In this document: piece after piece, positions 1,175 through 63,492 of the stretch
Layout of the letters: each line of letters opens with the position of its first letter
Position numbering within the stretch: the stretch's first letter is position 1
Source of the DNA: Helicobacter cetorum
GTDB taxonomy: Bacteria; Campylobacterota; Campylobacteria; Campylobacterales; DZAY01
Direction: 5' to 3'
Assembly (NCBI GenBank): GCA_022729735.1
Contig: DZAY01000002.1
Location: 1-64,000, forward strand
DNA length: 64,000 nt
Position numbers and translations under genes: made by a program
The notes under the pieces: generated by a model
Seen by the model: the letters and a program-made list of their open reading frames with translations, nothing else
The model's database searches: none
Told to the model about the DNA's origin: nothing

Positions 1175-1198
1175 AATCTTCTCCTTTCTAAAATCTAT

Positions 1199-1444
1199 TT
1201 AAGCAGCATGACTAAAGCAACCTTTTGGGCATACTTTTGCACAAACTTTACAACCAATACACTCACCATCATTTACCAAAACCATAAAGTTATGCTCTTC
1301 ACCTTCATCATCTTCTTCACATTTCAGAGTCATAACATTAGTTGGACATGCTTTATAACATCTTCCACAAGCAATACAATCACCACTATTTAATGAAGAT
1401 ACAAACTCTTGAATCCACTCTGTTCCATTTTTTTTCATAGCCAT
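1199..1444 (-). CDS. fdxB: Nif-specific 2[4Fe-4S] ferredoxin (ferredoxin III)
   Basis: An 81-residue bacterial-type ferredoxin with two 4Fe-4S cysteine sets: [12 protein letters not shown] at about residues 23-34 and [15 protein letters not shown] near the C-terminus. The spacing between the clusters and the acidic linker (EEDDEGEEH) fit the ferredoxin III / FdxB group found in nif clusters. It lies between the DUF269 gene (3-base gap) and nifW. An alternative start is the second Met (MKKNG). Its expected role is electron transfer to nitrogenase or in FeMo-cofactor synthesis. Confidence 0.9.
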
Positions 1445-1447
1445 GGT

Positions 1448-2229: not shown

Positions 2230-2279
2230 ACTATTTCCTTTTAATGAACTGTTATCTAAAACTTTGATATTAAAAAAAC

Positions 2280-3530
2280 TCACGACTTTATTAAACTATT
2301 TGCAACTTCAAACAAGAAGTTACAACTCCCTTCATACAAAATATCACTTTTTAGCAAAACTCCAATTTCTTCGTAATTTGGATAACCTCTTAAAATCAAA
2401 GTTTTATGATGTTTATGAGCTAATTTTTCAGCATGAGAGTTTCCAATTAATAAATTAAATTTATCAACTCTATTCTCAATATCTTCAAAATCTCCAACCA
2501 AAACTTCACAATTAAACTCTTTCAAAATTTCACTATCAGTGCTACTAACAGCCAAACTTATTTCAGCTCCAACTTCAGCTAATGCTTTTGCAACTCCATA
2601 AATATAATCAGCTTCACCAGCTAATGCAACTTTTGCTCTTCCTACAATAAAATGAGCATCAAGCATTGCATCTTGAAGTCTCGCTCTCCATCTCTTTATC
2701 TTAAATGGAACCTCAACTTTTTTAATTTTTAGTAACTCTTCTACAAATTCATCAACAGCAACAAGCCCATTTAATGAATTTGTGTGAATATGTTTTATAT
2801 TTGAATTTTTAGAAATAAGCGCTTTGGCTACATCTCTTACACTCTCTCCAACTGTAATTACAACAAAACTATTAGCTAAATTTTCAATCTCTTCAACACT
2901 AATTCCTCCACCACTAATAGTTCCTTGCTTTTCTCCCAAATATCCATCAAGCGAATTTGAAATATCTGGTAGGGCTAAAACTTTGTATCCAAACCCTTCC
3001 ACAAACTCTTTTAGCTTTTCAACTTCTAAAGCTGTAAAATTTACATTTGGAATAATTAAAGCCTTACTCTCATCTATACTGTTTTGTTCAAAAGTTAATT
3101 GCTCTATCATAGCTTTGACACTTAAAGCAAAACCATCTTGTAATCCACCCTCATAATCTGGGCTATTTACATATACAATTTTGTAATCTGTAAGATTTTT
3201 TGCAACACCTTTTAAATCATCACCTTTAGTTTCGGTTAATCCTGTGCTAAAAAGTCCTATTAATTTTGGTGTAACTTTTTTTGTGATATTAATAACTGCT
3301 TCGCTAATTTGTTTATCACCACCATCAAGCACAGCTGAAATATCTGTAACTGCCGTTGTTTGAATTGCAATTGGTTCATTAAAATGTCTTGTAAATAGAA
3401 CTTTTGTAAAAGATGCACACCCTTGCGCTCCGTGCATTAAAGGCATACACTCACTAACTCCCAAAAATGCTAATGTTGCTCCCATTGGAGATGAGAGTTT
3501 AAATGGATTTACTTGCAAAGGTTTTACCAC
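2280..3530 (-). CDS. nifN: NifN, FeMo-cofactor biosynthesis scaffold subunit
   Basis: A 416-residue NifK paralogue. It has the cluster-binding region MGATLAFLGVSECMPLMHG with a Cys, the following HGAQGCASFTKVLFTRHF stretch, and the NifN signature STGLTETKGDD, where the third P-cluster cysteine of NifK is lost, as is usual in NifN. It forms the alpha2beta2 NifEN scaffold on which FeMo-co is matured. It overlaps nifE by 7 bases, indicating coupled translation. Confidence 0.93.
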   Translation of the reverse strand: MVKPLQVNPFKLSSPMGATLAFLGVSECMPLMHGAQGCASFTKVLFTRHFNEPIAIQTTAVTDISAVLDGGDKQISEAVINITKKVTPKLIGLFSTGLTETKGDDLKGVAKNLTDYKIVYVNSPDYEGGLQDGFALSVKAMIEQLTFEQNSIDESKALIIPNVNFTALEVEKLKEFVEGFGYKVLALPDISNSLDGYLGEKQGTISGGGISVEEIENLANSFVVITVGESVRDVAKALISKNSNIKHIHTNSLNGLVAVDEFVEELLKIKKVEVPFKIKRWRARLQDAMLDAHFIVGRAKVALAGEADYIYGVAKALAEVGAEISLAVSSTDSEILKEFNCEVLVGDFEDIENRVDKFNLLIGNSHAEKLAHKHHKTLILRGYPNYEEIGVLLKSDILYEGSCNFLFEVANSLIKS

Positions 3531-4870
3531 GGCGACTCCTTTGCAACAATTTTAAATACAGGATTTTTAAGTGCAAATGAAACATCTTTTGCAAAATTTA
3601 AAAGTCCATTATATCCACCATAAGAGAGTTTCTTTTCTTGATTTACATCTACAAATGCTACCCGTTTTTTAATTGCTGTATATAAACTTCTACCACCAGC
3701 TAAAAGAATATCAACACCATAATCACTAATTAGTTTTGCTTGTTCAGCTGATGGCACTTTCATTAAAACTCCATCATCACCCAAATACTCTCTCGCTTTT
3801 GCTTTATCTTCTTCAGTTGCTTTATTTACCGAAGTTGCCACAACTTTTATTCCCAAATCTTGAAGAGCTGATATAAAGCTCCACGATTTATTTCCACCAG
3901 TATTTAAAATTGCTTTTTTACCAGCAAAAAGTTCTCTATAAGGTTTTAGTTGCTCTTCTAATTTTGCTTCTTCTTGCTCAATTATCTCTTTTGCTTTTTT
4001 GGTTAAATTTTCATCATTAAATGCCTTTACAATATCCATAATCGCATTTGAAGTATCTCTTTTACCATAAAATGAAACTGAAATATATGGAATAGAGTAT
4101 TTTTCTTCCATTTTTCTTGTTAAACTAATTAACGATTTTGCACAAACAATTACATTTAGTTTTGCACGATGAGCATATTTGATGTGTTCGACTCTTCCAT
4201 CACCACTTAGAGTTGATAAAATTCTAATTCCAATTTTTTCTAAAATATGTGAATATTGCCACATATCACCCGTTACATTATATTCACCAATTAAATTAAT
4301 ATCATAAGGAGTTCTGAATTCTGGCTCTTTTGTGCCAATTAGTTTTGCTAAAATATCTTCAGCTCCAACTCTTGAACCTAAATTTTTACTTCCTACAAAT
4401 CCTGGAGCATTTATTACAACAACAGGAATATTGTATAAATTTTGAGCATTTTTTGCTATGGCTTCTATATCATCACCAATTAAAGATGTCACACAAGTGA
4501 TATATATAAATATCGCTTCTGGTCTATAATTGGTCATAATATAGTCAATTGAGTCTTTTATTTTTCTTTCACCACCAAATATAACATCATTTAGTGAAAT
4601 ATCAGTAGTAAAACCCATTTGAGTAAAATCTTTGTGATAGCTTGTTTTTGTCGCTCTTGTTTCCCATGATGCACCAAGACATGTTATTGGTCCATGAACT
4701 AAATGGACAACATCAGCAAAAGGGAAGAGTGATATTTGAGCCCCTTCAAATGCACAACCACCAGTTGTAGCTCCTGGGAGAGGTCTATTACAAGAGCTTT
4801 TTTTATCTTTATTATGAGAACATGCAGACTCGTTTAAGAGTTCTTTTATAACTTTTCCACTTGGTAACAT
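3524..4870 (-). CDS. nifE: NifE, FeMo-cofactor biosynthesis scaffold subunit
   Basis: A 448-residue NifD paralogue. Cysteine motifs are visible in GGCAFEGAQ, HGPITCLGASWETR and YITCVTSLIGDD. It forms the NifEN scaffold with NifN. It is separated from nifK by 97 bases that hold a large palindrome and a TATAAT-like box, so nifEN and downstream genes may have their own promoter besides read-through from nifHDK. The ATG at 4870 follows AAAGGGG. Confidence 0.93.
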   Translation of the reverse strand: MLPSGKVIKELLNESACSHNKDKKSSCNRPLPGATTGGCAFEGAQISLFPFADVVHLVHGPITCLGASWETRATKTSYHKDFTQMGFTTDISLNDVIFGGERKIKDSIDYIMTNYRPEAIFIYITCVTSLIGDDIEAIAKNAQNLYNIPVVVINAPGFVGSKNLGSRVGAEDILAKLIGTKEPEFRTPYDINLIGEYNVTGDMWQYSHILEKIGIRILSTLSGDGRVEHIKYAHRAKLNVIVCAKSLISLTRKMEEKYSIPYISVSFYGKRDTSNAIMDIVKAFNDENLTKKAKEIIEQEEAKLEEQLKPYRELFAGKKAILNTGGNKSWSFISALQDLGIKVVATSVNKATEEDKAKAREYLGDDGVLMKVPSAEQAKLISDYGVDILLAGGRSLYTAIKKRVAFVDVNQEKKLSYGGYNGLLNFAKDVSFALKNPVFKIVAKESPW

Positions 4871-4925
4871 CTTAACCCCTTTGTCTAATACCTATACAAT
4901 TACAATAAGAAATTATATAGCTTAC

Positions 4926-4966
4926 TGATTAAAAATAGACAAGATTAATTGTCTATTTTTTAATCA
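4926..4966 (-). promoter_or_regulatory. Palindromic element upstream of nifE, shared with nifH
   Basis: Arms GATTAAAAATAGACA (4927-4941) and its complement (4950-4965, one extra T) form a 15-bp inverted repeat with an 8-base centre. The right half (4945-4966) is identical at 21 of 22 positions to 9454-9475 upstream of nifH. A TATAAT box lies just downstream in the minus direction (about 4913-4918), so the palindrome overlaps the -35 region of a possible nifE promoter. It may be an operator; alternatively it is an attenuating hairpin between nifK and nifE. Confidence 0.5.
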
Positions 4967-4967
4967 T

Positions 4968-6503
4968 CTATCTAACAACATCGAAGAAGTAGTCAGTTTT
5001 TGCTATAACTTTTGTATCTTCATCTAATTTATCAAGGATTTTATTAACAACCCAAGTTAAAAGATTTAAAGTACCTTTATAACCAACTATAGAGTATCTG
5101 TGTAAATGGTGTCTATCAAAAATTGGGAAACCAACATAAATCAGTGGTGTGCCTGTATCTCTCATAAGCTCTTTTCCATAACTATTACCAAGCATAAAAT
5201 CAACTGGTTCAGTAAATAGAAGGCTTCTTAAATGCCATAAATCTCTATTTGGGTAAGCTTTTAAGCTATCTTTTGCTGGTGAAGTTTCAAATATAGCTTT
5301 CATCTCTTCTTCCCACTCTGGAGTTCCATTATTACACAATACATGTGTTGGCTCTCCACCCATCTCAATTATAAATTTAGCAAGACCTATTGTTAAATCT
5401 GGGTCTCCAAAAATTGCAAACTTTTTACCATGAATATATGGATAACTATCTTGCATTGCATCTACAAGTTGTCCTCTTTGAAGTTTTAATATATCTGGAA
5501 CATCTTTTCCACTTATTTCAGAAAGAGCCATAACATACTCATCACTTCCTTTTAATCCGATTGGATTAATTACTCTTACATCTTGTTTATACTTTTTCTC
5601 AAACAGTTTTGCTGTTTTTGGTGTAGAGTATTTTTGGAAAAATATTGTTGCTTTTGAGTTTGCTACATCTTTAGCATCGCTTAATGATGTTCCACCTGCA
5701 AACATAGAGTAACCACCAGCTGGTGTATTCCATTGACCTGAATGGTCTGCTAAAGTGATAAAATCAATTCCGAATGCTTTTGCAATCTCTTTCTCTTCTT
5801 CAATACTTCCCAAATATGTTTCAAATCCTGGAACAATATTTACTCTATCTTTTTTCTCACTACTAACTGTAGTATTTAATTGACTAACAATATTATGAAG
5901 CATAATGTCATAACCTGTAATATGACTTCCCACAAAGCTTGGAGTGTGTGCATATGGAATTGGTGTCTCTTTTAGGTTATCTGCTTCTTCAATCGCACCT
6001 GCAACGAAAGCTTGTAAGTCATCACCAATAACTTCAGCCATACAAGTTGTAGATACTGCTATCATATCTGGATTATATAGAGCTTTACAGTTTCTTAGTC
6101 CATCTTTCATATTTGTCAAACCACCAAATACTGCTGCATCTTCAGTCATAGAGTCTGATACACAAGGAGTTGGCTCTTTGAAATGTCTTGTAAAATAACT
6201 TCTAAAGTATGCAACACATCCGTGGCTTCCATGAACATAAGGCATTGTATTTTCAAATCCAAGTGCTACCATTACAGCACCAAGTGGCTGACAAGCTTTT
6301 GCTGGATTTACAGTGATAGCTTCTCTTGCAAAGTTTTTCTCTCTATATTCCCAAGTTTTTGTCCAGTCTGCAATCTCTGTAACTTTTTCTGGATTACAAG
6401 CCATAGCAGAACCTTCAAACTGCTTTTTATTTTTCAATACTTCTTGATACTCTGGTTTTAAAAATAGCTCTTTACCATTTACAATTTTCTCTATATCTTG
6501 CAT
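4968..6503 (-). CDS. nifK: Nitrogenase MoFe protein beta chain
   Basis: A 511-residue NifK. P-cluster cysteines are visible in ACQPLGAVM, HGSHGCVAYFRSYFTRHFKEP and STTCMAEVIGDD. The N-terminal extension characteristic of NifK (about 60 residues before the first ligand) is present. With NifD it forms the alpha2beta2 dinitrogenase. It follows nifD with a 63-base gap and ends with TAG just before the shared palindrome. Confidence 0.96.
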   Translation of the reverse strand: MQDIEKIVNGKELFLKPEYQEVLKNKKQFEGSAMACNPEKVTEIADWTKTWEYREKNFAREAITVNPAKACQPLGAVMVALGFENTMPYVHGSHGCVAYFRSYFTRHFKEPTPCVSDSMTEDAAVFGGLTNMKDGLRNCKALYNPDMIAVSTTCMAEVIGDDLQAFVAGAIEEADNLKETPIPYAHTPSFVGSHITGYDIMLHNIVSQLNTTVSSEKKDRVNIVPGFETYLGSIEEEKEIAKAFGIDFITLADHSGQWNTPAGGYSMFAGGTSLSDAKDVANSKATIFFQKYSTPKTAKLFEKKYKQDVRVINPIGLKGSDEYVMALSEISGKDVPDILKLQRGQLVDAMQDSYPYIHGKKFAIFGDPDLTIGLAKFIIEMGGEPTHVLCNNGTPEWEEEMKAIFETSPAKDSLKAYPNRDLWHLRSLLFTEPVDFMLGNSYGKELMRDTGTPLIYVGFPIFDRHHLHRYSIVGYKGTLNLLTWVVNKILDKLDEDTKVIAKTDYFFDVVR

Positions 6504-6566
6504 TTTAAATCCTTTCTTCTTCTCTTCGTCTGTTAGTTAGATTAAAAATATTAAAAGCACAAAGGA

Positions 6567-8015
6567 CTATTTGTCCCAAGGTGCTTTGTTATAACTCCAT
6601 ACTGGAGAGTTCATAGCTAAATCCATATCTTGTGCAAATATTGCAAATCCATCATATCCGTGATATGGACCACTATAATCCCAAGAGTGCATTTGTCTAA
6701 ATGGTAATCCCATTTTTTGGAACACATACTTCTCTTTAACTCCTGATGCTACTAAATCTGGTTTGAGTTTTTTTACAAATGCTTCTAACTCATACTCATT
6801 TACATCATCATAAATTACAGTACTTCTTGAAATCTCTTCTGTTGTTCTTTGGTAATCATCATCATGAGCAAACTCATAACCTGTTCCAATAACTTCCATT
6901 CCTAAATCTTCATAAGCACCAATAACATGTCGAGGTCTAAGTCCTCCAACAAAAAGCATAACTTTTTTGCCTTCTAATCTTGGTCTAAATTTAGCAATTA
7001 CAGCATCCATAATTGGTTTATATTTAGCAATTACTTTTTCTGTATTTTCTTTGATTGTATCATCAAAGAAACTTGCAATTTTTCTTAAAGACTCGATAGT
7101 TTTAGTTGGACCAAAGAAGTTATACTCCATCCAAGGAATACCATACTCTTGCTCCATATGTCTTGAAATATAGTTCATACTTCTATAACAATGTAATAGA
7201 TTTAATTTAACTTTTGGAGTCATTTCCATCTCTTTTAAAGTAGCATCACCACTCCATTGAGCAACAACTCTAAGTCCCATCTCTTCTAAAAGAATTCTAC
7301 TACTCCAAGCATCTCCACCGATGTTGTAATCCCCAATAATTGCAACATCATAAGGTGTAGTTTCTAAATCTTTTGAAGCTGAAATATGGTTTGGAAATAC
7401 ATAATCTCTAATTGCATCGTTTGCAATATGGTGTCCTAAACTTTGAGAAACACCTCTAAAGCCTTCGCAACTTACAGGAACTACTGTTTTTCCAATCTCT
7501 TTTGTAACTTTTTTAGAAACTGCTCCAATATCATCACCAATTAAACCAATTGGGCATTCACTTTGAACTGAAACACCATTATTAAGAGGGAAAAGCTCAT
7601 TTAACTCTTCAATCGCTTTGTGAAGTTTTTTATCTCCACCAAATACAATATCTCTCTCTTGAAAATCTGTTGTAAAGTTCATAGTTACAAATGTATCAAC
7701 ACCAGTTGTTCCAATATAATAGTTTCTTCTACCAGCTCTACTATATTGACCACAACCAACTGGACCGTGACTGATATGTATCATATCTTTGATTGGTCCC
7801 CAAACAACACCTTTAGAACCAGCATAAGCACAACCTCGCTGACTCATAACACCAGGAATTGTTTTTTTGTTACTTCTAACACCACCACAAGTTTTACCCT
7901 CTGCATCTTCAGGAGTTCCAACTCCTAAATGTTTTGCTCTAAGCTTTTTAGCTTTTTCTGGATAAGCCTCTAAAACCTCTTTTACAGCTTCTTGTTGTAA
8001 AGTTTCTAAACTCAT
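6567..8015 (-). CDS. nifD: Nitrogenase MoFe protein alpha chain
   Basis: A 482-residue NifD. P-cluster ligands lie in [26 protein letters not shown] and [11 protein letters not shown]. The FeMo-co ligands are the Cys in [11 protein letters not shown] and the His in [15 protein letters not shown]. All key residues of an active molybdenum nitrogenase are present. It is preceded 10 bases upstream by the small gene at 8026-8376 and followed by nifK. Confidence 0.96.
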
Positions 8016-8025
8016 AGTAGCCTCC

Positions 8026-8376
8026 TTAAATTAGAGAAACTCTAACAGGTTCCATCCCATCAAAGAGTTTGCAAATTGATTGTGTCTCTTCATCTTTATC
8101 AAATTGTTTTGACAACTCACTCATTTGATATTTGTTTGTATAAATTAAATATTTATTGTTGCTATCACCATCTTTTTTAGCATAATGAATTAAAGCTTTT
8201 GCTAAAAGAGTATCTAATTTAGAATACTCTAACTCATTGTCAAATTTTTTACCATAGTTTATTTTGATTTTTGAAACTCCATCCATTTTTACTTCAGAGT
8301 CTAATTTCTCTACAACTTTGTCTAATGCTACTTTGTTACCCATTGATGCTGGGAAGTGAAATCCTAATACAAACAT
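8026..8376 (-). CDS. Unrecognised small protein encoded between nifH and nifD
   Basis: A 116-residue soluble protein starting [13 protein letters not shown]. It has one cysteine (near residue 102), no membrane segment and a mixed alpha/beta appearance. I do not recognise a family. It is not the AnfG/VnfG delta subunit (different sequence and position) and not a GlnB-like protein of the kind found between nifH and nifD in methanogens. It has a clear AGGAG site, lies 32 bases after nifH and 10 bases before nifD, and so must be co-transcribed with the nitrogenase genes. A role in nitrogenase regulation, protection or assembly is inferred from position only. Confidence 0.8.
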
Positions 8377-8408
8377 TTTATGCTCCTATGTTTTATTTTT
8401 ATAAATTA

Positions 8409-9344
<936 letters not shown>

Positions 9345-33288: not shown

Positions 33289-33678
33289 CTACCTCAAATA
33301 TAAACTTGCATAAATCATATCAAGCTTGTTGTGTGAAATTTCTGTGGAGAATTTTGGCATAGTTGTATTTGTGATATGCCTTTTTTCTCCACTCACATAG
33401 CTAAAAAACTCATCTCTACTTAAATGCGATTTTGGTAGCCACATATCAGGCTCTATATGACACGAATAGCAAGGTGTATCTTTTAGAGCTGATACATTTA
33501 GATTATATTTTGTCATAGTCTGCATCACCACATTATGCTCTTTTTCCATTCGCTCCAAAGCTTTTTGTATCTCTTTTATTTCGGAGTTTGAGTTATTCAC
33601 ACTTGTTAGCCCATTATTGAAATCTTTGTAAATGCTAAATGTGAAAAATAGGATTAATAAGATAGCTATTAATTGCAT
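33289..33678 (-). CDS. Membrane-anchored c-type cytochrome in the lysis cassette
   Basis: A 129-residue protein. Residues 1-16 are a hydrophobic anchor, 30-50 a coiled coil (EIKEIQKALERMEKEH), and 68-129 a small cytochrome c domain. The haem-binding motif is CYSCH (Cys70, Cys73, His74), a possible axial Met107 lies in TTMPKF, and the C-terminal helix ending DMIYASLYLR is typical of class I cytochromes. It overlaps the holin-like gene by one base and is third in the order endolysin, holin-like, this gene, which is where an i-spanin (Rz) normally sits. The anchor and coiled coil fit a spanin; the haem motif does not. The function is not known. Confidence 0.75.
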   Translation of the reverse strand: MQLIAILLILFFTFSIYKDFNNGLTSVNNSNSEIKEIQKALERMEKEHNVVMQTMTKYNLNVSALKDTPCYSCHIEPDMWLPKSHLSRDEFFSYVSGEKRHITNTTMPKFSTEISHNKLDMIYASLYLR

Positions 33679-34052
33679 TAGTTACTTTTCTCTTTTTCAG
33701 GATATTCTCTTTTTGCTCTTCTCTTGTCCAGCACGAGTTGGAACTCTTCTATCAAAAATTCTAATCCAAGTGGTAAAATTTCTCTTGCAATCAATCCACC
33801 AATCACAGAGCCAATCACTTGATACTCTGCATACTCTTTTAGAGCTGATAAATTAAAGCTGATATAGAAAAGCCAAGCTCCAAATAGTGCAACTCCAATA
33901 TGCACCCAAAAGTTGATAAAAAATTTCCACCAAAGAATTTTGCCATCATCTGATTTGTAAATATTCACCTCTTCATTTCTAAGCACTCTTCCCCAATATA
34001 GCAGAGTTGCACCAACTCCACTACCCAAAATCACTTTATCCAAATTATCCAT
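33678..34052 (-). CDS. Holin-like membrane protein
   Basis: A 124-residue protein with hydrophobic segments at about residues 8-22, 42-66 and 80-98 and a highly charged C-terminal tail (DKRRAKREYPEKEKSN). Size, membrane segments, charged tail and position 2 bases after the endolysin gene fit a holin. Sequence family is not recognised. Confidence 0.6.
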   Translation of the reverse strand: MDNLDKVILGSGVGATLLYWGRVLRNEEVNIYKSDDGKILWWKFFINFWVHIGVALFGAWLFYISFNLSALKEYAEYQVIGSVIGGLIAREILPLGLEFLIEEFQLVLDKRRAKREYPEKEKSN

Positions 34053-34054: not shown

Positions 34055-34597
34055 TTAAACTCTCTCTAATCTATGTAGCCAACCATTCAAAAAAACAGCT
34101 TGTGAGTTATCATTTGAAACTATCTCTTCATATAGCTTTTTTCTACTCTTTTTTATCTCTTTTATAAATTTATTACTATCAAACTCATTCAAGGCTTTTA
34201 AAGTTCCACTTCCAAATATCCCATCAGCTTTTACTTTGATAACTTTTTGAGTAGCAATTACAGCAGTTTTTAATCCACTATTTACACTATAATCAAATAT
34301 ATTATCAGCAACTAATTGTTGATTAATCAAATCACCTTTTATTTTATCCCAAAATTCTAACTTATAAAACTCTCTAACACCTTCTTGAACTACTAAATTA
34401 TCTTCTAATAACTCATTTATTTTAGCTACTCCGACATCAAGAGCTTTCACTTTATCTATTTCACTCCAAAATCCTAAAATAGGAAACCATCTACGACTTA
34501 TACCTTTATAAGTCTCACCTCCTCTATCAGCTTTATTATTTGCATATCCACCTTCACACTCTATTAGCTTAATATAAGCAATTCTAAAATCAGCCAT
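34055..34597 (-). CDS. Phage endolysin, GH108 family N-acetylmuramidase
   Basis: A 180-residue protein. The N-terminus has the GH108 catalytic signature ECEGGYANNKADRGGETYKGI, where the Glu of ECEGGY is the catalytic residue. The C-terminal half (IFDYSVNSG, KADGIFGSGTLKALN) matches the associated peptidoglycan-binding domain. No signal peptide is seen, so release through the holin is expected. It is the first gene of the minus-strand lysis operon. Confidence 0.9.
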   Translation of the reverse strand: MADFRIAYIKLIECEGGYANNKADRGGETYKGISRRWFPILGFWSEIDKVKALDVGVAKINELLEDNLVVQEGVREFYKLEFWDKIKGDLINQQLVADNIFDYSVNSGLKTAVIATQKVIKVKADGIFGSGTLKALNEFDSNKFIKEIKKSRKKLYEEIVSNDNSQAVFLNGWLHRLERV

Positions 34598-47930: not shown

Positions 47931-50900
47931 ATGAATAATTCAGAAATATTAAACTCTAAAGAGATTAATGGAGTTAGATACGAAAAGATAAATGTTAGTG
48001 ATTTAGAAAAACTAAGAATATTAAAAGATAAAGGTTATAGACCTGTAACGGATTTAGAAACTCTAAAAGAGTTAGAAGGTTTTAAAGATAGTAGCAGTAT
48101 GTCCGAAGGGCTTAAATCCTTTGGTTATGGAATGTTAAAACCAATTAGTGCTGATTATCCTGCATCTATTGGAAAACTAATTGGTAGCAAAAGTCTTGAA
48201 AATTTTGGAAACGAAGCAAGACGAAATATTGAAGATAACTACTCAAATAGTTATAGTGGAATGCTTGGTGAAATAGCTGGAGACCCAATGACATATACAC
48301 CAATGGGACTTTATAACAAAGGCAAAAGAGCTGTTGATTTTATAAAATCACTTGCAACTGGTGGAGCAATTGGTGCAAGTAGTCAATTCGCAAGAGATTA
48401 TGGAAATCAAGATTTAACAAATAGTGAAAAGTTACAAAATAGCTTAATCGCTGGTGGAATTACTGGTGGTTTAGCTGGAGGATTAAGTCAAGTTTTTAGA
48501 AAAGTTCCAACTCCTCAATCTACATTATCACCCCAAAATCTTCAAAATGGATTGGCACAAAATGGAGAAGAATTTGGATTAAATAGCTCTAATTTCAAAC
48601 AAACTACATCACAAAATCCACAACCTCAAGCAATTCAGCAACCACAAGGAGTTATAAATGATAATAGACTTAATGATACTACTAATATCACTAATCGCGA
48701 TAGTGTTATTTATGGAGATAACAATGAAATAAATAAAGTTGAATTCAAACAAATTCCAAAACCACTTGAAACACCACAAGAAGCACTTGACTATATTCTT
48801 TATGGTAAAAAACCTATGCAAACTATTCAAGTGGTGAATGATAATGTGAAAAATCATAGATTAGAAAATCAGCTTTTTGCTTCACCTCATATTGGTAGTG
48901 GTGTTGTTGGTGGAACTGCAAATGCGACTGAAATTGATGAAAATGGTAATATGAATATTGACCCTGAAAAGTTTGTAACTGGATTTTTAGCTGGAATGGG
49001 TGCAAGTAAAGTAGGAGCTATGACATTAAGACAAACTAATCCAAATCTATATAACAATCTTTTAGGAATTGGTAAAAAACATCCAAATATGGCAAAATCA
49101 AATCCTACTCTTTTAGCAAAAATTTATAATAGCTCAAAAGATAGCTCAACTAATATGTTTGCTGGAGAAAAGGCTTTGAGTGCAAATATATCAAATTTAC
49201 AAATGGCTAAAGAGCTTGAAAAAAGTGGAGCTAATGAGGTTGATATTTGGAAAAATACAAGTTGGTTTAAAGGTGATGATGGAGAGTGGAGATTTGAAAT
49301 TAATGATAGTGATGTAACTTTTAATGATAATTTGAAAGTTGGAAAATATAAATTAAGTGAAATATTTAATCATGATAAGCTTTTTGAAAACTACCCAGAA
49401 TTAAAAGATTTTGAAGTTAAAGTCGAAAACAACAAAGGGGCTTATTATAGAGGATATTACACAAATAAATCAATCACTCTAAACAAAGCTACTGAAGGAG
49501 TGAATAAATCTACACTACTTCACGAAATTCAACATGGCATTCAAGGATTTGAAAATTTTGGACAAGGAGCAGACCCAAGACTCATATTTGATTTAAAAAT
49601 CGACCCTATTTTAAAAACTCCAGCAGCTAAAAAGTTGGCAAATATAATTAATCCGAAAGTTATGGGATTAGAAGATAAAAGTAAGATTAAAAAAATTGTT
49701 GATAATGTTTTGCAAAAACCAAAATATTATGGATTAAAAGAGATGCCAACAGAAGATGATATAAGATTAATTTATGAAATGGTAGATAAAGGCTGGAGTA
49801 GTGTATTTAAAGATTATGTGAATGGCACAAAAAGGTCGCCTCTTTGGCAAAGTGAGCGAGTGCATGGTGAAGCAGAAGCAAGACTTACACAAAATAGAGC
49901 TAACAAAGGCTATGATAATTTTCCATATGATGATTTAGATGTGCCACGAAATGAGATAAAAGACGATGCTATTGATTTTATGATGGATAATATGCAAATG
50001 TCTCCTGTTAAATCTAAAAAGCAAAAAGAACAGAGAGCAACTTTTAATGTTCAGTTTAATGGTAAAAAATCTGCAAATATTTATAGAGATAAAGATTTTA
50101 GAGATGTTGAAAATGCTATCAAGTTTGAGAGAGGTAAAGAAAATATTCATACTGGCAAAGGTTTTGGAGCTTTGCATATTGAAAAACATATCGGTGATGA
50201 CAAGGATGGGTGGATAACTGTTAAAGAGTTTTTGAATATGGGGAATGCTATTAGAAATGTTGAGCCGTATCTAAAAAATGGTAAAAGAGTCTATGAATAT
50301 AGAAATAATTTTGGAGATAGATTTAGAATTATTATTGGAGATGATAATAAGAGAGAAAGAGTTATAACATTTTACTCAAATAGAAAGGCTGGGTTCGGCA
50401 ACGATAGCCAAAATTACATTTACAACCAGCCTTCTAACGAAACTCTATCACCACAAAACTTAGAAGATAATAAACTCAATCCAAATATGCGAGGTGGTTT
50501 TGTTGATAATCAGTTAATATCAGATGGTGCAGAAACTATAAAAGATAGTTGGGATAAGCTAAAAATTCTATTTTCAAATACTTTGCCACGAGATTATATG
50601 GGATTGCGAGAAGAGACTATCACAAATATGAGTAAAGCATCTCACCAAATGGAAACTCTACATAAAGCATTAAAAAGACTTGATGAAAATGATAGAGTTG
50701 CACTTCATGAATATATGGTTGGAGACAAAGTTGATATAAAATCTGAACTGAAAACTATTGGTGATAGCTTTAGAGCAGAAGTCAAAGACTTAGAAAAAGA
50801 GTTGGTAACAAATGGTGTTTTAAGTCAAGAAGCTTTTGATGAGTGGAGTGAAAAATATCTACATAGGATTTATAAAGGTAGCTTTAAAAACTCTATGAAT

Positions 50901-52661
50901 AACCTATTTAGTCGAGGTTTTACAGTTGATAAAATCAGACAAAGAGGATTGAAACTCAAAACAAGAGACAATAAAAGAGTTATCGAATTTGTAAATGATT
51001 TTCTAAAATCCAAAAATTTAGAACCTCTAAATATTAGCTCAAACTCAATTCCACTCACTATAAAACATTTAGAAAATATGGGATTAATTGGCAAAGTTGG
51101 AGATGGCAAGATTAATTATAGCTTTGGGAAAAATGGAAAAATAACTCTAAATAGAGATTATACATACAATGAGCGAACAGAAATGGGTGAAATTAGAGAT
51201 ATAGCAGTAACTCTACCAGAGACAATTCTAAGATTAAAAAAGTTAAAAGAGCATAGCAATTTATTAAAAGAGGTGCAACAAAAGAGTGATATTATAAGCG
51301 ATGCAGAAACTGATGGCTTTAAACAGTTAAAAGTTTCATCTATGTATGGAGTTTTGAGTGGAAAATATGTGAGAGAAGATGTATATTATGATTTAGTCAA
51401 AATGGGTGATGATATACACGGAACTATATTTGGAAATAATAGCCTAATTGCTAAATTATGGCTTGGCTATTTAAGAATTTGGAAAAAAGCCAAAACTGTT
51501 TGGCATGCACCAGCCCACTTAAACAATCTAATATCAAATATCTTTCTTATGAATGTAGCAGGTGTTCCAGCTAAAAATATAGTTAGTGGTTATGGAAAAG
51601 CTATCCAAATGATGAAAAATGCTAAAAAACTTGATGAGTTAGAGCAGTTAAAACTCTTAAATATAGCAACAAAAGAGCAGTTAGATGAGTTAGATGATTT
51701 AATTAAAAATCAAAATATGGGCTTATACAAAGAAGCAAAAGAGCTTGGCATTCTTGGTAGAAGTCAAATAAATGAGATGTTGCGAAGTGATAGCGAAATA
51801 TTTGGAAATAAAAATATATTTAGCAAAGCAGATGATTTTATGAGTAAGCTTTATCAAAATGAAGATGCAGTTAATCGACTAATCGCTTATAAGTTTTTCA
51901 GAGAAAAGAACTTTAGCAAAGAAAAAGCCAAAGAAATTGTTACAGATATTATGCCAGATTATACCAAACCACTACCACAAGGTTATCGACTGCTAAAAGA
52001 TAGTGGAGTAAGTCCATTTATTAGTTGGAGCTATTATGTTTTGCCAAAGCTAATTCGGCGAATAGCTACAACCAAAGCAGGAGCTACAAGTGTCATTACT
52101 GTATTAAGCACTTTAGGAGCATTAGAATATATCTTATCAGATATATCACCTTTAGACCATATGCCTTTTATGGATACAGATTTACCAGACGATTTCAAAG
52201 GTAGAAAAGTTGCAATTGGCAAAAGTGGAGACACTATTCACACTTTAAATGCTGACAAAATGGTACCTTATTTAGGGCTTTTAAATCCTCAAAACTTTGC
52301 ATCAGGATTGCTTAGTGGAGTTTCAACAAGTATGGCATTTAATGCAATTGAAGGCTTAAACCCAAATATGGATTTGAGGAGAATTTATGATGGTAGAGCA
52401 ATAAGCTCCAAAACAAAAAGCACAAGTGATAGAGCAATAGACTACATAAAATATTTAGCACAACAATATGTGCCACTTCCTCAACAAGCTTATAGCACTT
52501 ATAATTATGTAGAAGCTATGAATAAACCAGAACATAGACGAAAAGTTAGTGATGTTGTATTACCAAAAACCACAGCTCAAGGACTTTTGCAACTACTTGG
52601 TATAAATCTTAGAGACTATTCAGCAAATGGATTAAAAAGAGAGCAGTATAAAAAAGAATAA
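47931..52661 (+). CDS. Giant phage internal/polyvalent protein with HExxH motif
   Basis: A 1576-residue protein. Residues about 60-185 include Gly-rich hydrophobic stretches (GGAIGASSQFA, GGITGGLAGGL). Residues 531-535 form HEIQH, the zinc-peptidase HExxH pattern. Residues about 740-825 (GFGALHIEKHIGDD ... ERVITFYSNRK) resemble the PBECR-type nuclease fold of phage polyvalent proteins. The C-terminal third has hydrophobic helices and the segment AKTVWHAPAHLNNLISNIFL, similar to LPD38-like regions of phage internal proteins. Such proteins are carried in the head and ejected with DNA. It is the last gene of the plus-strand structural region. Confidence 0.65.
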   Translation: MNNSEILNSKEINGVRYEKINVSDLEKLRILKDKGYRPVTDLETLKELEGFKDSSSMSEGLKSFGYGMLKPISADYPASIGKLIGSKSLENFGNEARRNIEDNYSNSYSGMLGEIAGDPMTYTPMGLYNKGKRAVDFIKSLATGGAIGASSQFARDYGNQDLTNSEKLQNSLIAGGITGGLAGGLSQVFRKVPTPQSTLSPQNLQNGLAQNGEEFGLNSSNFKQTTSQNPQPQAIQQPQGVINDNRLNDTTNITNRDSVIYGDNNEINKVEFKQIPKPLETPQEALDYILYGKKPMQTIQVVNDNVKNHRLENQLFASPHIGSGVVGGTANATEIDENGNMNIDPEKFVTGFLAGMGASKVGAMTLRQTNPNLYNNLLGIGKKHPNMAKSNPTLLAKIYNSSKDSSTNMFAGEKALSANISNLQMAKELEKSGANEVDIWKNTSWFKGDDGEWRFEINDSDVTFNDNLKVGKYKLSEIFNHDKLFENYPELKDFEVKVENNKGAYYRGYYTNKSITLNKATEGVNKSTLLHEIQHGIQGFENFGQGADPRLIFDLKIDPILKTPAAKKLANIINPKVMGLEDKSKIKKIVDNVLQKPKYYGLKEMPTEDDIRLIYEMVDKGWSSVFKDYVNGTKRSPLWQSERVHGEAEARLTQNRANKGYDNFPYDDLDVPRNEIKDDAIDFMMDNMQMSPVKSKKQKEQRATFNVQFNGKKSANIYRDKDFRDVENAIKFERGKENIHTGKGFGALHIEKHIGDDKDGWITVKEFLNMGNAIRNVEPYLKNGKRVYEYRNNFGDRFRIIIGDDNKRERVITFYSNRKAGFGNDSQNYIYNQPSNETLSPQNLEDNKLNPNMRGGFVDNQLISDGAETIKDSWDKLKILFSNTLPRDYMGLREETITNMSKASHQMETLHKALKRLDENDRVALHEYMVGDKVDIKSELKTIGDSFRAEVKDLEKELVTNGVLSQEAFDEWSEKYLHRIYKGSFKNSMNNLFSRGFTVDKIRQRGLKLKTRDNKRVIEFVNDFLKSKNLEPLNISSNSIPLTIKHLENMGLIGKVGDGKINYSFGKNGKITLNRDYTYNERTEMGEIRDIAVTLPETILRLKKLKEHSNLLKEVQQKSDIISDAETDGFKQLKVSSMYGVLSGKYVREDVYYDLVKMGDDIHGTIFGNNSLIAKLWLGYLRIWKKAKTVWHAPAHLNNLISNIFLMNVAGVPAKNIVSGYGKAIQMMKNAKKLDELEQLKLLNIATKEQLDELDDLIKNQNMGLYKEAKELGILGRSQINEMLRSDSEIFGNKNIFSKADDFMSKLYQNEDAVNRLIAYKFFREKNFSKEKAKEIVTDIMPDYTKPLPQGYRLLKDSGVSPFISWSYYVLPKLIRRIATTKAGATSVITVLSTLGALEYILSDISPLDHMPFMDTDLPDDFKGRKVAIGKSGDTIHTLNADKMVPYLGLLNPQNFASGLLSGVSTSMAFNAIEGLNPNMDLRRIYDGRAISSKTKSTSDRAIDYIKYLAQQYVPLPQQAYSTYNYVEAMNKPEHRRKVSDVVLPKTTAQGLLQLLGINLRDYSANGLKREQYKKE

Positions 52662-52664: not shown

Positions 52665-54059
52665 TTAAGTTGAGATAGAAGAAAATGCCTTTAAAGCATT
52701 TTTTTTGAAGTCTTTAATATACTCTTTTTCATCTATCTGCTCTATATCATTTTTTAAAAGCCATTTTATATCTTGATATTTATTTTGATTAATCTCTTCT
52801 TTTTTTGTGCATCCAATCAATATAATACCAGGGATAACATTATTAGTATCACTAGCTTTAAATGAATACACTGCTATTGGCTGACTATCATTTAATATTT
52901 CTATATCAATTCCAAAATCTTCTTTATATGTTCTTTTCGCAGTATCTTCAAAAGTTTCATTAAATTTAATTTGACCACAACCAAATTCCCATATATTTGG
53001 AAATCTTTTTTTATTACTTGGTCTTAAAGCTGTTAAAATTTTTGTTTTGTCGCTATTAAAGCATATTAAAGCAACATGAACTTCTGATATTTTATCAAGT
53101 TGAACTTCATTATCTTGTTCTGGTTTAGATTCAGTGATTTTTTTAATAATTGCATCAATATCATCAATTTGATTTATATCTTCAAATATTTTTTCAAGTT
53201 TTTCAATATTATCTAATTTGTTTTTTTTAATTTTATACTTCAATGTTTCTATCAACTCATTATCAAAATGTTCATCATAAAAAAACATAGTTTCACTATT
53301 CCAATTCTCACTATACCAAATGATTGGATATTTATGAGTTCTCCAAATTCCTTTTAGTTTTTCATAAGAAACTATTTTTAAATTTTTATCAATATTTCCA
53401 GTTTGCCCATTGAGTTTATGTTTATCTTTTAATATTTGTCTATTTTTAAATAACAAATATGCTAACTTAGCTCCAACTGCTATTACTCCATGATGTGAAT
53501 ATTTAGATATTCTAAAGCCCAAATCAATCTCAAAACCTAAAAAATCAGGTTTTAACATTGTTTGAATATTATTATTTTCAAAAGGTGGAGAAAAAATTAT
53601 ATTAGTTGCTTTTTCAGAATTATCTTTAGTATCTATTGCTTTTACTTGTTCATCTACAACATCTGCTATCCAAGCCGTAGTTTTGATATATAATTTATCA
53701 AAAAAATGTGATTTTTTATTAAGTTCTTTTTCAACATCTTTTATAACCTTATAAATATAAGGTAATGATTTAAATAGCTCCTCTTCTTTTGTAACTTTCA
53801 AATAAAATAGGACTTCGTCACCAATAAATTTCCAAATTTTTAAATTTTGAAGAGGACTATTCTCTTTTTTTATCAATTCTTTACTGATACGATAATAAAA
53901 ATCATTAAATGTAATATACCACTCTTGATTTCTAATTTTATATTCAGTAGCATTAGCTAAATCAAAAGATAAAAGAAGATATATCCCATCTCGATTATTT
54001 TTTGCTTCTTGATAGATACTATTATCTACTTGATTAGTTATTTTATCTTTTAAACTCAT
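52665..54059 (-). CDS. Class III nucleotide cyclase-like domain fused to a Nudix domain
   Basis: A 464-residue protein. The N-terminal domain (about residues 22-240) has the class III cyclase layout: first metal Asp33 in SFDLANAT, the hairpin IWKFIGDEVLFY with Gly80-Asp81-Glu82, the strand LYIKTTAWIADV, and DFLGFEIDLGFRISKYS (residues 172-188), which corresponds to the conserved G-x-x-[VI]-N/D-x-[AG]-x-R segment. The C-terminal domain (about 325-455) is Nudix, with box G362-x5-E368-x7-R376-T-Y-K-E-D-F-G. The second Glu of the usual RE is Thr and EE is ED, so hydrolysis may be altered. It follows the immA-like gene by 3 bases. The Pycsar-type cyclase link is an inference from fold and location. 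Confidence 0.75.
   Translation of the reverse strand: MSLKDKITNQVDNSIYQEAKNNRDGIYLLLSFDLANATEYKIRNQEWYITFNDFYYRISKELIKKENSPLQNLKIWKFIGDEVLFYLKVTKEEELFKSLPYIYKVIKDVEKELNKKSHFFDKLYIKTTAWIADVVDEQVKAIDTKDNSEKATNIIFSPPFENNNIQTMLKPDFLGFEIDLGFRISKYSHHGVIAVGAKLAYLLFKNRQILKDKHKLNGQTGNIDKNLKIVSYEKLKGIWRTHKYPIIWYSENWNSETMFFYDEHFDNELIETLKYKIKKNKLDNIEKLEKIFEDINQIDDIDAIIKKITESKPEQDNEVQLDKISEVHVALICFNSDKTKILTALRPSNKKRFPNIWEFGCGQIKFNETFEDTAKRTYKEDFGIDIEILNDSQPIAVYSFKASDTNNVIPGIILIGCTKKEEINQNKYQDIKWLLKNDIEQIDEKEYIKDFKKNALKAFSSIST
52682..52706 (+). terminator. Terminator of the plus-strand structural operon
   Basis: Stem AAAATGC/GCATTTT with loop CTTTAAA is followed by a run of T on the plus strand. It lies inside the 3' end of the convergent cyclase-Nudix gene. 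Confidence 0.7.
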
Positions 54060-54062: not shown

Positions 54063-54599
54063 TTACCACTTAAATATTCCTAACCATTTTCCACGATTTT
54101 TAGCAGCCTCAACAGATACTGCAAAATGATTAGCTACTTCCTGAATATTGCAAATTCCATTATTAGTGTTATTAATTACAACTTTTTTATATTCATCTTC
54201 TGGCATAAGTAAAGCAGCTGAAAATTCATGTGCATCATACTCTTCTTCAGAATATCCTCTTCTTGCATAAACAGTATCTTCATAATCAACTGATTTTTCC
54301 CACTCATCTTTGTTTAAATATTTCATATGCAAAAATAGATGTCCTATTTCATGACATAATGTAAATTTTTTTCTCTCATCACTTGAGTAGTTTGCACTAT
54401 TTAATATAATTTTAAAACTATTTACATTTCTTTTAATAATTCCATCTATATCTATATCCAATATGGCAGTTTCAACTTTACCTTCGAGTTCTTCTACGAA
54501 GCTTACTAAATCTTTAAATGTTAAAGGAGTTTTCAAATTAGCTTCTTTTCTAATAATTTCAGCCAATTCATTTATTTGTCTTCGTCTTATTGTTGTCAT
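54063..54599 (-). CDS. ImmA/IrrE family metallopeptidase
   Basis: A 178-residue protein. The zinc motif is HEIGH (His83, Glu84, His87) in LCHEIGHLFLHM; the downstream family signature is EYDAHEFSAALLMPEDEY, and a C-terminal helix-turn (VANHFAVSVEAAKNRGKWLG) is also typical. In mobile elements such peptidases cleave cognate XRE repressors; IrrE/DdrO is the Deinococcus example. Here no XRE gene is adjacent; the partner is the cyclase-Nudix gene 3 bases downstream. The upstream region has its own promoter-like sequences and an 18-base inverted repeat. Confidence 0.88.
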   Translation of the reverse strand: MTTIRRRQINELAEIIRKEANLKTPLTFKDLVSFVEELEGKVETAILDIDIDGIIKRNVNSFKIILNSANYSSDERKKFTLCHEIGHLFLHMKYLNKDEWEKSVDYEDTVYARRGYSEEEYDAHEFSAALLMPEDEYKKVVINNTNNGICNIQEVANHFAVSVEAAKNRGKWLGIFKW

Positions 54600-56969: not shown

Positions 56970-57213
56970 TTCTGTTTCTCCTTTTTGCTCTTTCAAACCG
57001 TTTTCTATGAATTCGCAAAGCATTTTGTATAGATTTTTGGCTCATTCCAGCACTCACAAAGTTATCAATTATCAAGTTTTCAACATATCTAAGTGAAATA
57101 TATAAATGGATTTTGTCATATTTTGTCGCCATTCGATAAAGCTTAAATATATTTCCATCGCATATATCCATAAGTATTGCAATATTTAAATCAACTCCAT
57201 CTTTTTTAAACAT
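56959..57213 (-). CDS. Small HTH-like phage protein
   Basis: An 84-residue protein (MFKKDGVDLNIAILMD). Its C-terminal half (NLIIDNFVSAGMSQKSIQNALRIHRKRFERAKRR, in pieces) looks like a helix-turn-helix with a basic tail. It is squeezed between terL and the portal gene: one-base overlap (TAATG) with terL and 11-base overlap with the portal gene. Confidence 0.6.
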   Translation of the reverse strand: MFKKDGVDLNIAILMDICDGNIFKLYRMATKYDKIHLYISLRYVENLIIDNFVSAGMSQKSIQNALRIHRKRFERAKRRNRNAR

Positions 57214-59225
57214 TACCAAACACCACCATAAGTTGAATACAAATGATGCTCACTTTCTCTAAGTCTCTCTTCTTCCATTTCAAACTCTTTATCAACCACA
57301 ATATCAAAAAATGTTAATGCAACTGCTTCAGCTCTATCTGGACTTCTACCAAGCTCTTTTTTTATATCAGCTTTTGGAATTATCATAAGCTTTCCTTTTT
57401 CACTATACATAAACCTCGTCGCATTCAAATCACCAAGCAACATATCATCATTTGGAAGTTTCATAGATTTAAGGTTATTGCTAAATTCATAATATATTTC
57501 AGCCCTCTTATTTACATAAATATCTTTTGAAGGTCGATTTGATACATTCGCACTTATTACAGGAAGTCCGAGCTGAATACATCTATCATACACACCAGCA
57601 CCAATTCCAATACTATCTATAAATATCGCTTTTGGCTTTTCTTTTGCACTTTGATACTCATAAGCAACAAAACTTGCCAACTCCATCGTGGATAAATTTT
57701 CTTTTGTGATTAGTTGGCTCAAATAATAACCTTTTCGCTTAGCCAAAACAGAGCTATCATCTCCAAACCTTGCTACATCTAATCCCCAAACCATAGCACC
57801 ACTCTTATCAACTGCTTCTCTTGCAACTGCATCTTCTAAATCTGCAACAGCAAATAAACTATCGCTACTACTTCGTGGAAACTCACCCAATACTCGAACT
57901 CTATATACATCACTATCAGTTCCATACTCTTTTTGTCGTCGCTCAATTACTGCTTTTGATACATTTGGGCTATCTTCTGCATTGAATGTAAATAGCTTAA
58001 ATAAATCTCTATTTTTATGAAATGAGTTATAAAAATATCCACTTGTTCTCGTTGGATTTCCCGTCATAATCAAGATATTATGCACACCAGTTAATGCACC
58101 ATCTATAACTTCAAATATATTTTCAGGCACACCACTCGCTTCATCAACAATGAATAGAAGATTTGTAGCATGAAAACCTTGCATAGCTTCTGGATTTTCT
58201 TTCCTTGCTGTTCTTGCAACTGCGAAGTTGTTATTAGAAAAGCTCACCTTATCCACTTTTACATCTACACTTGTTTGCATAAATTCAGGTAGCTTTGATT
58301 TCCATTTTCTAATTTCAGGTATCATTATGTTTAATAATTGTGGAGCTGATGGAGCTGTCATTGGAATTTTGCAATCATATTTTGCCAATCCAGCCCATAA
58401 AGTTATCCAAGATAAGAGACCAGTTTTACCAGTATTATGAAGAACTATAAAATCTGCTCCTAAAAATTTATGATTTCCATCTAACTCAAATCCATAATAA
58501 TCTCCTTCACCTAAAAATTCAACGGATTTAATACCAAAATGCAAATTATTTCTTTGCCTTTTAACTTCTATCCTATTAAATCTTTTTGTTGGTATTTCGT
58601 CTATATCTAAAGCTTTTGATACTATATTTTTTTTATCACCTAAATATATTTTATCACCCCTACTTGCACCATCACCTAACCAAGCTCCTAACTTATAAGG
58701 TTCTACTTCTAAATTAACTTCATCTTTGACTAAAGACTTTCTATAAAAAGCATGAGTTCGTTTTTTTCTATTGCTCCACTTTAGCCAATCTCTAATTGTA
58801 ACTGTAATTTTATCTCCAGCTATTTGACTACCATGAGTTTGTGTTGAAACTAAACATAATATATGGCTTTCATTAAATTCATACACTGTTCCATCATTTA
58901 AAGTAAATCGATACATATTTTCTCTACCGCGATATAGCTCTAATACATTTCTTGGAGTGCTATCATCACCCATTAGAATATCTCCAACTTTTACATCTTC
59001 AACTACCTTTGTATCGCAATTATGGAGCATAACTTTTGTCCCTTTTGCAAAACATCCATGACCTGATTTAATGCTAATTCTCTTTTCGCCATTATCTATT
59101 GCTTTTATCACTTCTAACTGTTGAGTTGTTGGGTTTGCTTTTAAAGCATACAGCACAAAATATTCAAGCTTTTGACACATTTTCACAAAATCCAAAAGTT
59201 TATTAGTGGTTGCCACTTGAGCCAT
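57213..59225 (-). CDS. terL: Terminase large subunit, interrupted by an intein
   Basis: A 670-residue translation product. Without the intein (residues 58-264) it is 463 residues, a normal TerL. The spliced Walker A reads SGHG-TGKTGLLSW. Walker B is LLFIVDEASGV. The nuclease domain has WGLDVARFGDDSS, FIDSIGIGAGVYDR and DRAEAVALTFFD with the metal-binding aspartates. It powers DNA packaging and cuts concatemers. It overlaps terS by 23 bases. Confidence 0.93.
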   Translation of the reverse strand: MAQVATTNKLLDFVKMCQKLEYFVLYALKANPTTQQLEVIKAIDNGEKRISIKSGHGCFAKGTKVMLHNCDTKVVEDVKVGDILMGDDSTPRNVLELYRGRENMYRFTLNDGTVYEFNESHILCLVSTQTHGSQIAGDKITVTIRDWLKWSNRKKRTHAFYRKSLVKDEVNLEVEPYKLGAWLGDGASRGDKIYLGDKKNIVSKALDIDEIPTKRFNRIEVKRQRNNLHFGIKSVEFLGEGDYYGFELDGNHKFLGADFIVLHNTGKTGLLSWITLWAGLAKYDCKIPMTAPSAPQLLNIMIPEIRKWKSKLPEFMQTSVDVKVDKVSFSNNNFAVARTARKENPEAMQGFHATNLLFIVDEASGVPENIFEVIDGALTGVHNILIMTGNPTRTSGYFYNSFHKNRDLFKLFTFNAEDSPNVSKAVIERRQKEYGTDSDVYRVRVLGEFPRSSSDSLFAVADLEDAVAREAVDKSGAMVWGLDVARFGDDSSVLAKRKGYYLSQLITKENLSTMELASFVAYEYQSAKEKPKAIFIDSIGIGAGVYDRCIQLGLPVISANVSNRPSKDIYVNKRAEIYYEFSNNLKSMKLPNDDMLLGDLNATRFMYSEKGKLMIIPKADIKKELGRSPDRAEAVALTFFDIVVDKEFEMEEERLRESEHHLYSTYGGVW
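58434..59054 (-). other. Mini-intein in the terminase Walker A motif
   Basis: A 207-residue intein. It starts with Cys58 (CFAKGTKVML, block A), has a block B-like VYEFNESHILCLVS, a LAGLIDADG-like relic KLGAWLGDGAS, block F YYGFELDGNHKFLGADF, and ends LHN (His263, Asn264) before extein Thr265. Splicing joins GHG to TGKT. Only one weak endonuclease motif remains and there is no room for a full homing endonuclease, so it is probably immobile but splicing-competent. Confidence 0.92.
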
Positions 59226-62338: not shown

Positions 62339-62554
62339 ATGGGCGAAACTGTTGTTATATTTATTGTTATTTTATGTGTGCTATATTTGATAATTAGTTA
62401 TTTTAGTGATAAAAAAAATTTACAGGAAGTTGAAAAAAAACTCATAAAAGAGGTAGAAGAACTTACAATAAAAGAAAATGAGCTAAAAATAAAATTTGAA
62501 AATTTCAAAAAAAATCATCCTGATATTTTAAAGTTTAGAAATATACGACCATGA
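62339..62554 (+). CDS. Small membrane protein with coiled coil
   Basis: A 71-residue protein with a transmembrane helix (residues 4-22, VVIFIVILCVLYLIISYF) and a charged coiled coil. It overlaps the Mrr-like nuclease gene by 4 bases, and the two may act together. Confidence 0.65.
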   Translation: MGETVVIFIVILCVLYLIISYFSDKKNLQEVEKKLIKEVEELTIKENELKIKFENFKKNHPDILKFRNIRP

Positions 62555-63492
62555 ATTTATATAGTTTAAGAAAATTAGTAGTTAGTTTAAATGATAGGGT
62601 TCAAGTTTTAAAAACATCAATTGAAAATTTAAAATCAAAAACTGATTTAGCTCAAAAGTGTGAGCATAATGTGGCTGGTGCCTATTTATATCCTTTGCTA
62701 TGCACTAAATGCACAGAAGCTTTTTATGAATTTTGTAAGTTAAATAATGTGTCATTTTATCATTATAAAGAGTTGGTAGATTTTGAAGAACAAAAATTAA
62801 AAAAAGAAGCAATTAAAAGAAAATTAGAAGAAGAACAAAAAAGAATAGAAGAAGAACAAAAAATATTAAGAGATAAAAAAGAAGCTGAATATATTAAAGG
62901 TATAAAAAAATATGGAAAAGATTTATATGACTATATGACTAAAAGTCATTTATCAAATGAGGAATTAGGGCTTAGATATGAGAGATATATAGGCTATTTA
63001 TTTGAAAAAATTGGATATAAAGTTGAATACCATGGTGCTATAAATAAAAAACAAGATAGAGGTATTGATTTAATTGTTCATTATAATAAAGCTATTATGC
63101 TGATACAATGTAAAAGATATGGCAAAGATAATGTAATTCGTGAGAATACTATCACTCAATTAGTAGGAACTCTTTCTGTTTATAAAAATAAATATAATAA
63201 AAATTTTCTTGTAGGAGCATATCTATATACTCAAAATGATAATTTAGATAATAATGCAAAAGAAGCTCTAAAATATTTAAAAAAAGATTATCAAATAGAA
63301 CATGTAGTTGAAAAATATGACCCTAATTATCCAATGATAAAATGTAATATTGGACAAAAAGGCGATAAAATATATCATTTGCCAATAGATGCTTTATATG
63401 ATAAAATCAAAATAGAGGTTAATAAGGGTGAGTGTTATGTTCATACTGAAACAGAGGCTCAAAAATTGGGTTTTAGAAGGACAAAGATATAA
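62551..63492 (+). CDS. Mrr-like restriction endonuclease
   Basis: A 313-residue protein. Residues about 20-70 contain several Cys (CTKC near residue 51), followed by a long coiled coil (residues 78-120). Residues 135-235 form the Mrr-type PD-(D/E)xK nuclease: RYERYIGYLFEKIGY, Asp173 in DRGIDLIV, and Gln186-Cys-Lys188 in LIQCKRYG. The C-terminus (about 268-313, CNIGQKGDKIYHLP ... EAQKLGFRRTK) resembles the 'sunset' domain. It lies in the lysogeny region, where phage-exclusion genes are common; Mrr enzymes cut modified DNA. Confidence 0.82.
   Translation: MNLYSLRKLVVSLNDRVQVLKTSIENLKSKTDLAQKCEHNVAGAYLYPLLCTKCTEAFYEFCKLNNVSFYHYKELVDFEEQKLKKEAIKRKLEEEQKRIEEEQKILRDKKEAEYIKGIKKYGKDLYDYMTKSHLSNEELGLRYERYIGYLFEKIGYKVEYHGAINKKQDRGIDLIVHYNKAIMLIQCKRYGKDNVIRENTITQLVGTLSVYKNKYNKNFLVGAYLYTQNDNLDNNAKEALKYLKKDYQIEHVVEKYDPNYPMIKCNIGQKGDKIYHLPIDALYDKIKIEVNKGECYVHTETEAQKLGFRRTKI

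Follow-up and report, generated by a model that had tools for sequence, protein, structure and literature searches.

A probable c-type cytochrome encoded beside a presumed holin in the lysis cassettes of Campylobacterota prophages

A prophage of Helicobacter cetorum encodes, in one operon with its endolysin and a probable holin, a small membrane-anchored protein with a CxxCH motif, and homologous genes were found next to holin-like genes in prophages of other Campylobacterota. The reading that we consider most likely, at a probability of roughly 45%, is that the product is a phage-encoded, membrane-anchored mono-haem c-type cytochrome, which would act in the periplasm as a partner of the holin that responds to redox state or respiration. 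No description of a cytochrome as part of a phage lysis cassette was found in the open-access literature on phage lysis and on Helicobacter prophages; the individual parts are of known kinds, while their combination and the protein family appear to be undescribed.

Results

The CxxCH gene and its operon

The analysis started from a DNA stretch of 64,000 nucleotides (the window), in which the cassette comprises the following features, all encoded on the minus strand:

33289..33678 (-): membrane-anchored CxxCH protein, 129 aa (ORF with ATG start, homologues, Pfam match in relatives)
33619..33675 (-): N-terminal transmembrane anchor, residues 2-20 (hydropathy)
33457..33471 (-): CYSCH haem c attachment motif, residues 70-74 (sequence; Cys/Cys/His invariant in 17 members)
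33358..33360 (-): Met107, candidate sixth haem ligand, 33 residues past His74 (Met invariant in 17/17 members)
33678..34052 (-): membrane protein of 124 aa with two predicted transmembrane segments, probable holin (ORF, hydropathy, position like that of family A6, see below)
34055..34597 (-): GH108/PG_binding_3 endolysin, 180 aa (Pfam above cut-offs; PHROG endolysin)

A preliminary description, made from the sequence, had given the 129-aa ORF an anchor, a coiled coil, CYSCH at residues 70-74 and a candidate ligand at Met107; the anchor, a long predicted helix, CYSCH and Met107 were borne out by sequence, hydropathy and AlphaFold2. Hydropathy gave a single hydrophobic segment (residues 2-20), and the protein has two cysteines, both inside CYSCH. 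AlphaFold2 modelled residues 2-65 as one continuous helix (block pLDDT mostly 71-87), with low confidence around CxxCH, where this full-length model was too poor for a fold test. The window protein itself gave no Pfam cytochrome match. Of 41 prophage ORFs that do not overlap and are 50 aa or longer, only the one in the lysis cassette encodes CxxCH.

The proposal that the gene shares an operon with the endolysin and holin-like genes also held. It overlaps the upstream gene for the 124-aa membrane protein by 1 bp, the middle A of TAATG being common to stop codon and ATG, and that gene in turn starts 2 bp after the GH108 endolysin gene ends. The endolysin was matched by Pfam GH108 (Glyco_hydro_108; 2.4e-17) and PG_binding_3 (3.7e-11), both above the curated cut-offs, and by a PHROG endolysin family (2.2e-34). 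For the 124-aa protein there was no convincing family match, so that the label holin-like is based on position and on the two-segment topology; the protein is probably the holin.

The cassette is surrounded by genes for a P63C protein, an antirepressor-like protein, an SU10-type major capsid protein and others, and an integrase gene lies past the window end, at contig position about 67.3-68.4 kb. The prophage therefore lies between gyrA and host genes and extends from about 30 kb to 68 kb, with boundaries set by reading of the ORFs.

Further features of the region were recorded as separate observations. The Walker A region (SGHG...TGKTG) of a terminase-like protein (57213-59225, minus strand) is split by an intein-like insert, and Pfam Hom_end_hint matched residues 58-130 of this protein at 8.2e-19. 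An LPD23 polyvalent-protein domain is present in a phage protein of 1576 aa (47931-52661, plus strand), probably a multi-domain protein that is injected or associated with the virion. The prophage also encodes a protein with a C-terminal NUDIX domain (52665-54059, minus strand; 3.5e-7), which adjoins an ImmA-like peptidase ORF (54063-54599), and a protein with an Mrr-type restriction endonuclease domain (62551-63492, plus strand), a candidate defence gene. One N-terminal stretch, MHKFNTLDIIQSKKF-PKRHIM, opens two different ORFs, at window position 30980 and at contig position about 65838 (L107:2839); these sit near both prophage ends, which may point to a duplicated leader or a recombination site. 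A host nitrogen-fixation cluster with nif-like ORFs was recognised by reading of the ORFs at 140-9320 (minus strand).

Homologues and their distribution

Profile searches identified 16 homologues of the window protein in prophages of other Campylobacterota. A protein search of 397 Campylobacterota genomes, the first step, gave distant relatives, and a five-sequence profile, the second step, gave further ones. With a 13-sequence profile, 14 of the 121 genomes of the Helicobacter-like family f2 were positive; the gene was found in 1 of 153 genomes of family f3 and in none of the 104 genomes of family f7. A contig scan with a Helicobacter-type profile matched Helicobacter only (H. magdeburgensis MIT 96-1001, H. 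canis CCUG 32756T and Helicobacter sp. MIT 00-7814). The gene is also present in phage-collection prophages of H. cinaedi and H. canis, and three IMG/VR contigs carry a homologue. As sole query, the window protein gave no matches in IMG/VR or the phage collection, and two of its homologues (L019 and L020) brought no further members from IMG/VR. The four prophage records that were examined label the gene 'hypothetical protein'. Weak matches with E values of about 0.001-0.01 in the protein and five-sequence-profile searches were treated as chance; one weak match (G169/L054) lies in an ATP synthase operon.

No CxxCH gene was seen in L105/L108 and L106, which are closest to the window phage by capsid protein, indicating that the gene is dispensable for such phages. 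The sole relative of the endolysin found in IMG/VR (L104) belongs to a different kind of phage contig, one without a CxxCH gene. Two side observations were also made. One complete genome (G406) carries the same prophage region twice, on opposite strands and with an identical CxxCH protein (L081, L082). At a contig end, an anchorless CxxCH gene stands directly behind a TnpB-like transposase fragment (L017:13166-13992, minus strand), and is probably an insertion-damaged copy.

Gene neighbourhood in relatives

Wherever a locus is intact and does not run off the end of a contig, the CxxCH gene adjoins a gene for a holin-like membrane protein or lies one short ORF away from it (loci so counted: the window, L018, L019, L020, L044, L046, L048, L049, L051, L052, L078, L081 and L082). 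In the relatives this neighbour is one conserved holin-like family with three transmembrane segments, A6, and the two genes occur in either order; start and stop codons of the pair overlap in the window, L048, L049 and L052. L043 resembles L052 but has a broken three-segment gene. Homology between the two-segment window protein and A6 was tested and not shown. A6 had no match to a known holin family, and for this reason its designation as a holin is again based on position and topology. When the same 121 f2 genomes were searched for A6, 14 places were found, and a CxxCH neighbour was missing only from three truncated prophage remnants (L100-L102) and from L103, a locus in whose genome the CxxCH gene is located on another short contig. 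The companion lysis enzymes differ, being GH108 in the window, L052 and L078 (the latter two assigned by reading of the sequence), M15 in L051 and a DUF5675 protein in the L049 cassette; in our own reading the L049 phage has contractile-tail genes, unlike the window phage. The layout of anchor, coil and CxxCH beside lysis genes, which the preliminary description had suggested looking for in prophages of related bacteria, was thus found repeatedly, and these neighbourhoods argue with good confidence that the protein is a standing component of the lysis cassette.

Conservation and the cytochrome signature

The window protein and its 16 homologues were aligned (17 members, median pairwise identity 26%). 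Because some of them are close to each other (L043/L052 and L044/L046), the 17 sequences do not amount to 17 independent lines. C70, C73, H74, L81-P82, Val95, M107 and Ile114 are invariant in all 17, and N61, R96, P108, L119 and L126 are conserved in 16. The spacing from His to Met is 31-33 residues throughout, the Met107 column is followed by Pro in 16/17 members, and the two motif cysteines are the sole cysteines in 15/17. An invariant CxxCH among homologues of such low identity is not a product of chance. The family is under purifying selection: dN/dS was 0.09 and 0.11 in two close pairs, the second of which has only ten differences, and 0.17-0.31 in pairs with high but finite dS.

Pfam Cytochrome_CBB3 (PF13442) matched 9 of the 13 members scanned, with a best value of 1e-5. 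A domain-only model from six sequences (pTM 0.67, a moderate model confidence) was all helical and contained no strands. Foldseek gave no significant match to this predicted domain in PDB or BFVD; in a second look by the aligner, nearly all of the 31 matches listed were class I cytochromes c, at Z of at most 3.9. The model is consistent with a likely cytochrome c fold, and the conserved residues leave us with little doubt that the protein carries a cytochrome c domain. The host genome encodes ResB within a 1027-aa frame, which we take to be the fused CcsBA type of System II haem attachment. Together with the anchor, this ResB protein would fit a prediction of periplasmic export and haem attachment by the host, and we infer from the motif that the protein may be occupied by haem.

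The central claim of the preliminary description, that a phage lysis cassette includes a protein with a c-type cytochrome domain, is supported by the retention of the haem motif and Met, by the Pfam matches in relatives and by the linkage to lysis genes. It would have been undermined by homologues that were host respiratory proteins or by variable Cys and His residues; these residues proved invariant, and the homologues lie in prophages beside lysis genes.

Discussion

Proposed function

Whether holins are triggered depends on how far the membrane is energised, which raises the question of how a phage senses the physiology of its host to choose the time of lysis. In the mechanism that we propose, the System II machinery of the host would attach haem to the CxxCH protein in the periplasm, where the anchor and a helical stalk would carry a small class-I-like mono-haem domain (CxxCH plus Met). 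This domain would sit beside the holin, presumably in contact with it, and could modulate holin firing according to the redox state of the pool of cytochromes in the periplasm, in which case lysis timing would follow host respiration, much as T4 RI controls holin T. We regard redox- or respiration-responsive control of the holin by the CxxCH protein as a serious possibility, though a tentative one; a lysis clock with a haem sensor, in which a holin-bound phage cytochrome c reads the respiratory redox state of the host and sets the lysis time, is put forward more tentatively still.

A precedent for control of a holin from the periplasm is T4 RI, a membrane-anchored periplasmic antiholin that holds holin T in check (PMC11413866), and by this precedent a cytochrome in the same place could couple lysis to the respiratory redox state. 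The CxxCH protein resembles RI in its N-terminal anchor and periplasmic domain, the neighbouring gene being a presumed holin, and differs from it in its haem motif, none having been described for RI. With class I mono-haem cytochromes c (PF13442; PgcA domains, cytochrome c6) it shares a CxxCH that follows a helix, a Met-Pro about 30 residues further on and a C-terminal helix, and the predicted domain is weakly similar in structure to cytochromes c and c6. Unlike these cytochromes, it is phage-encoded and linked to lysis genes, has an anchor and a long helical stalk, and belongs to a family with a short His-Met spacing (31-33 residues).

Campylobacterota hosts live by cytochrome-based respiration, and prophages of this group may tie the moment of lysis to it. 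If this is true, a conserved cytochrome beside a presumed holin would offer a directly testable link from respiratory electron flow to lysis, and a lysis clock with a haem sensor would be lysis control of a kind not described before. Should the proposed sensor role prove mistaken, what remains is a family of c-type cytochromes encoded by phages that appears to be undescribed.

Alternative explanations

The main rival to a holin partner is an auxiliary metabolic gene, that is, an electron carrier of the phage that feeds or drains the host chain with no direct contact to the holin, for example by passing electrons to cbb3 oxidase or cytochrome c peroxidase and so keeping up the proton motive force or removing peroxide late in infection. 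The class-I-like cytochrome signature would suit such a carrier, and respiratory and sulfur genes are known from phages, including soxD, which encodes a c-type cytochrome (PMC8190135), and genes for cbb3 oxidase subunits in marine viral fractions (PMC3474794). The CxxCH gene is like these in being a c-type cytochrome or respiratory gene on a virus; the known examples, however, serve host metabolic pathways and have no described tie to lysis genes (PMC8190135, PMC3474794). A constant place beside the holin-like gene, in either order and in phages of differing gene content, points instead to a role in lysis, and members were found in prophage lysis regions or remnants, none among metabolic genes, so that we consider an auxiliary carrier unlikely. 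Still less probable is a protein for lysogenic conversion or superinfection exclusion that stands beside the lysis genes by chance and whose site of action is the lysogen's envelope. A membrane anchor with a periplasmic domain would serve this purpose, and two loci (L050, L080) keep the CxxCH gene as a relic outside a full prophage, whereas the overlapping start and stop codons shared with the holin-like gene in the window, L048, L049 and L052 imply co-translation with the lysis genes, and lysogens do not normally express these. The motif could also be a DsbC-like thiol-disulfide or metal site instead of a haem site, and a profile search did match DsbC around CxxCH (E 0.013-0.09). We judge this very improbable in view of the invariant Met at a fixed spacing, the conserved pattern of the C-terminal helix, the absence of thioredoxin strands from the predicted domain (at moderate model confidence) and the Cytochrome_CBB3 matches of the relatives.

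The preliminary description had placed the protein in the spanin position of the cassette, and it does resemble Rz/Rz1 proteins in its N-terminal anchor, periplasmic helix and place among the lysis genes. This part of the description was not supported, because relatives (L049/L057, L052, L043 and L078) encode a separate pair of an Rz-like protein and an Rz1-like lipoprotein. The Rz-like proteins beside the CxxCH gene matched PHROG 739 (2e-5 in L078, 1e-4 in L052), the Rz1-like lipoprotein of L078 matched PF23793 LysC (3e-4) and PHROG 1275 (1.8e-6), with weaker values for the others, and L051 also has an Rz-like gene. An alternative explanation is a modified i-spanin, in which the anchor and helical stalk do the work of a spanin and the cytochrome domain forms a periplasmic head. 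Its layout would agree with this, single members matched Rz-like PHROGs weakly (0.014-0.021), and the window prophage shows neither an Rz1-like lipoprotein (o-spanin) candidate nor any other Rz-like gene. The same absence also counts against it, since a two-component spanin requires an outer-membrane lipoprotein; cassettes of relatives (L049, L052, L043, L078), moreover, contain Rz/Rz1-type pairs in addition to the CxxCH protein, and the partner of the lipoprotein there is a separate Rz-like protein and not the CxxCH protein. A modified i-spanin is thus a poor prospect, and a cytochrome acting as partner of the holin remains the preferred reading.

The comparison of spanin-like ORFs yielded a minor observation on families that are listed as of unknown function. 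Judged by match, position and layout, PHROGs 1955 and 8566 look like i-spanins of Campylobacterota phages, and PHROG 2291 looks like an o-spanin lipoprotein of the same phages. The spanin-like ORFs lie at L049:5476-5787, L078:5374-5706 and L052:7182-7487; at L049:5774-6004, L078:5086-5301 and L052:7686-7934; and at L051:4593-4994.
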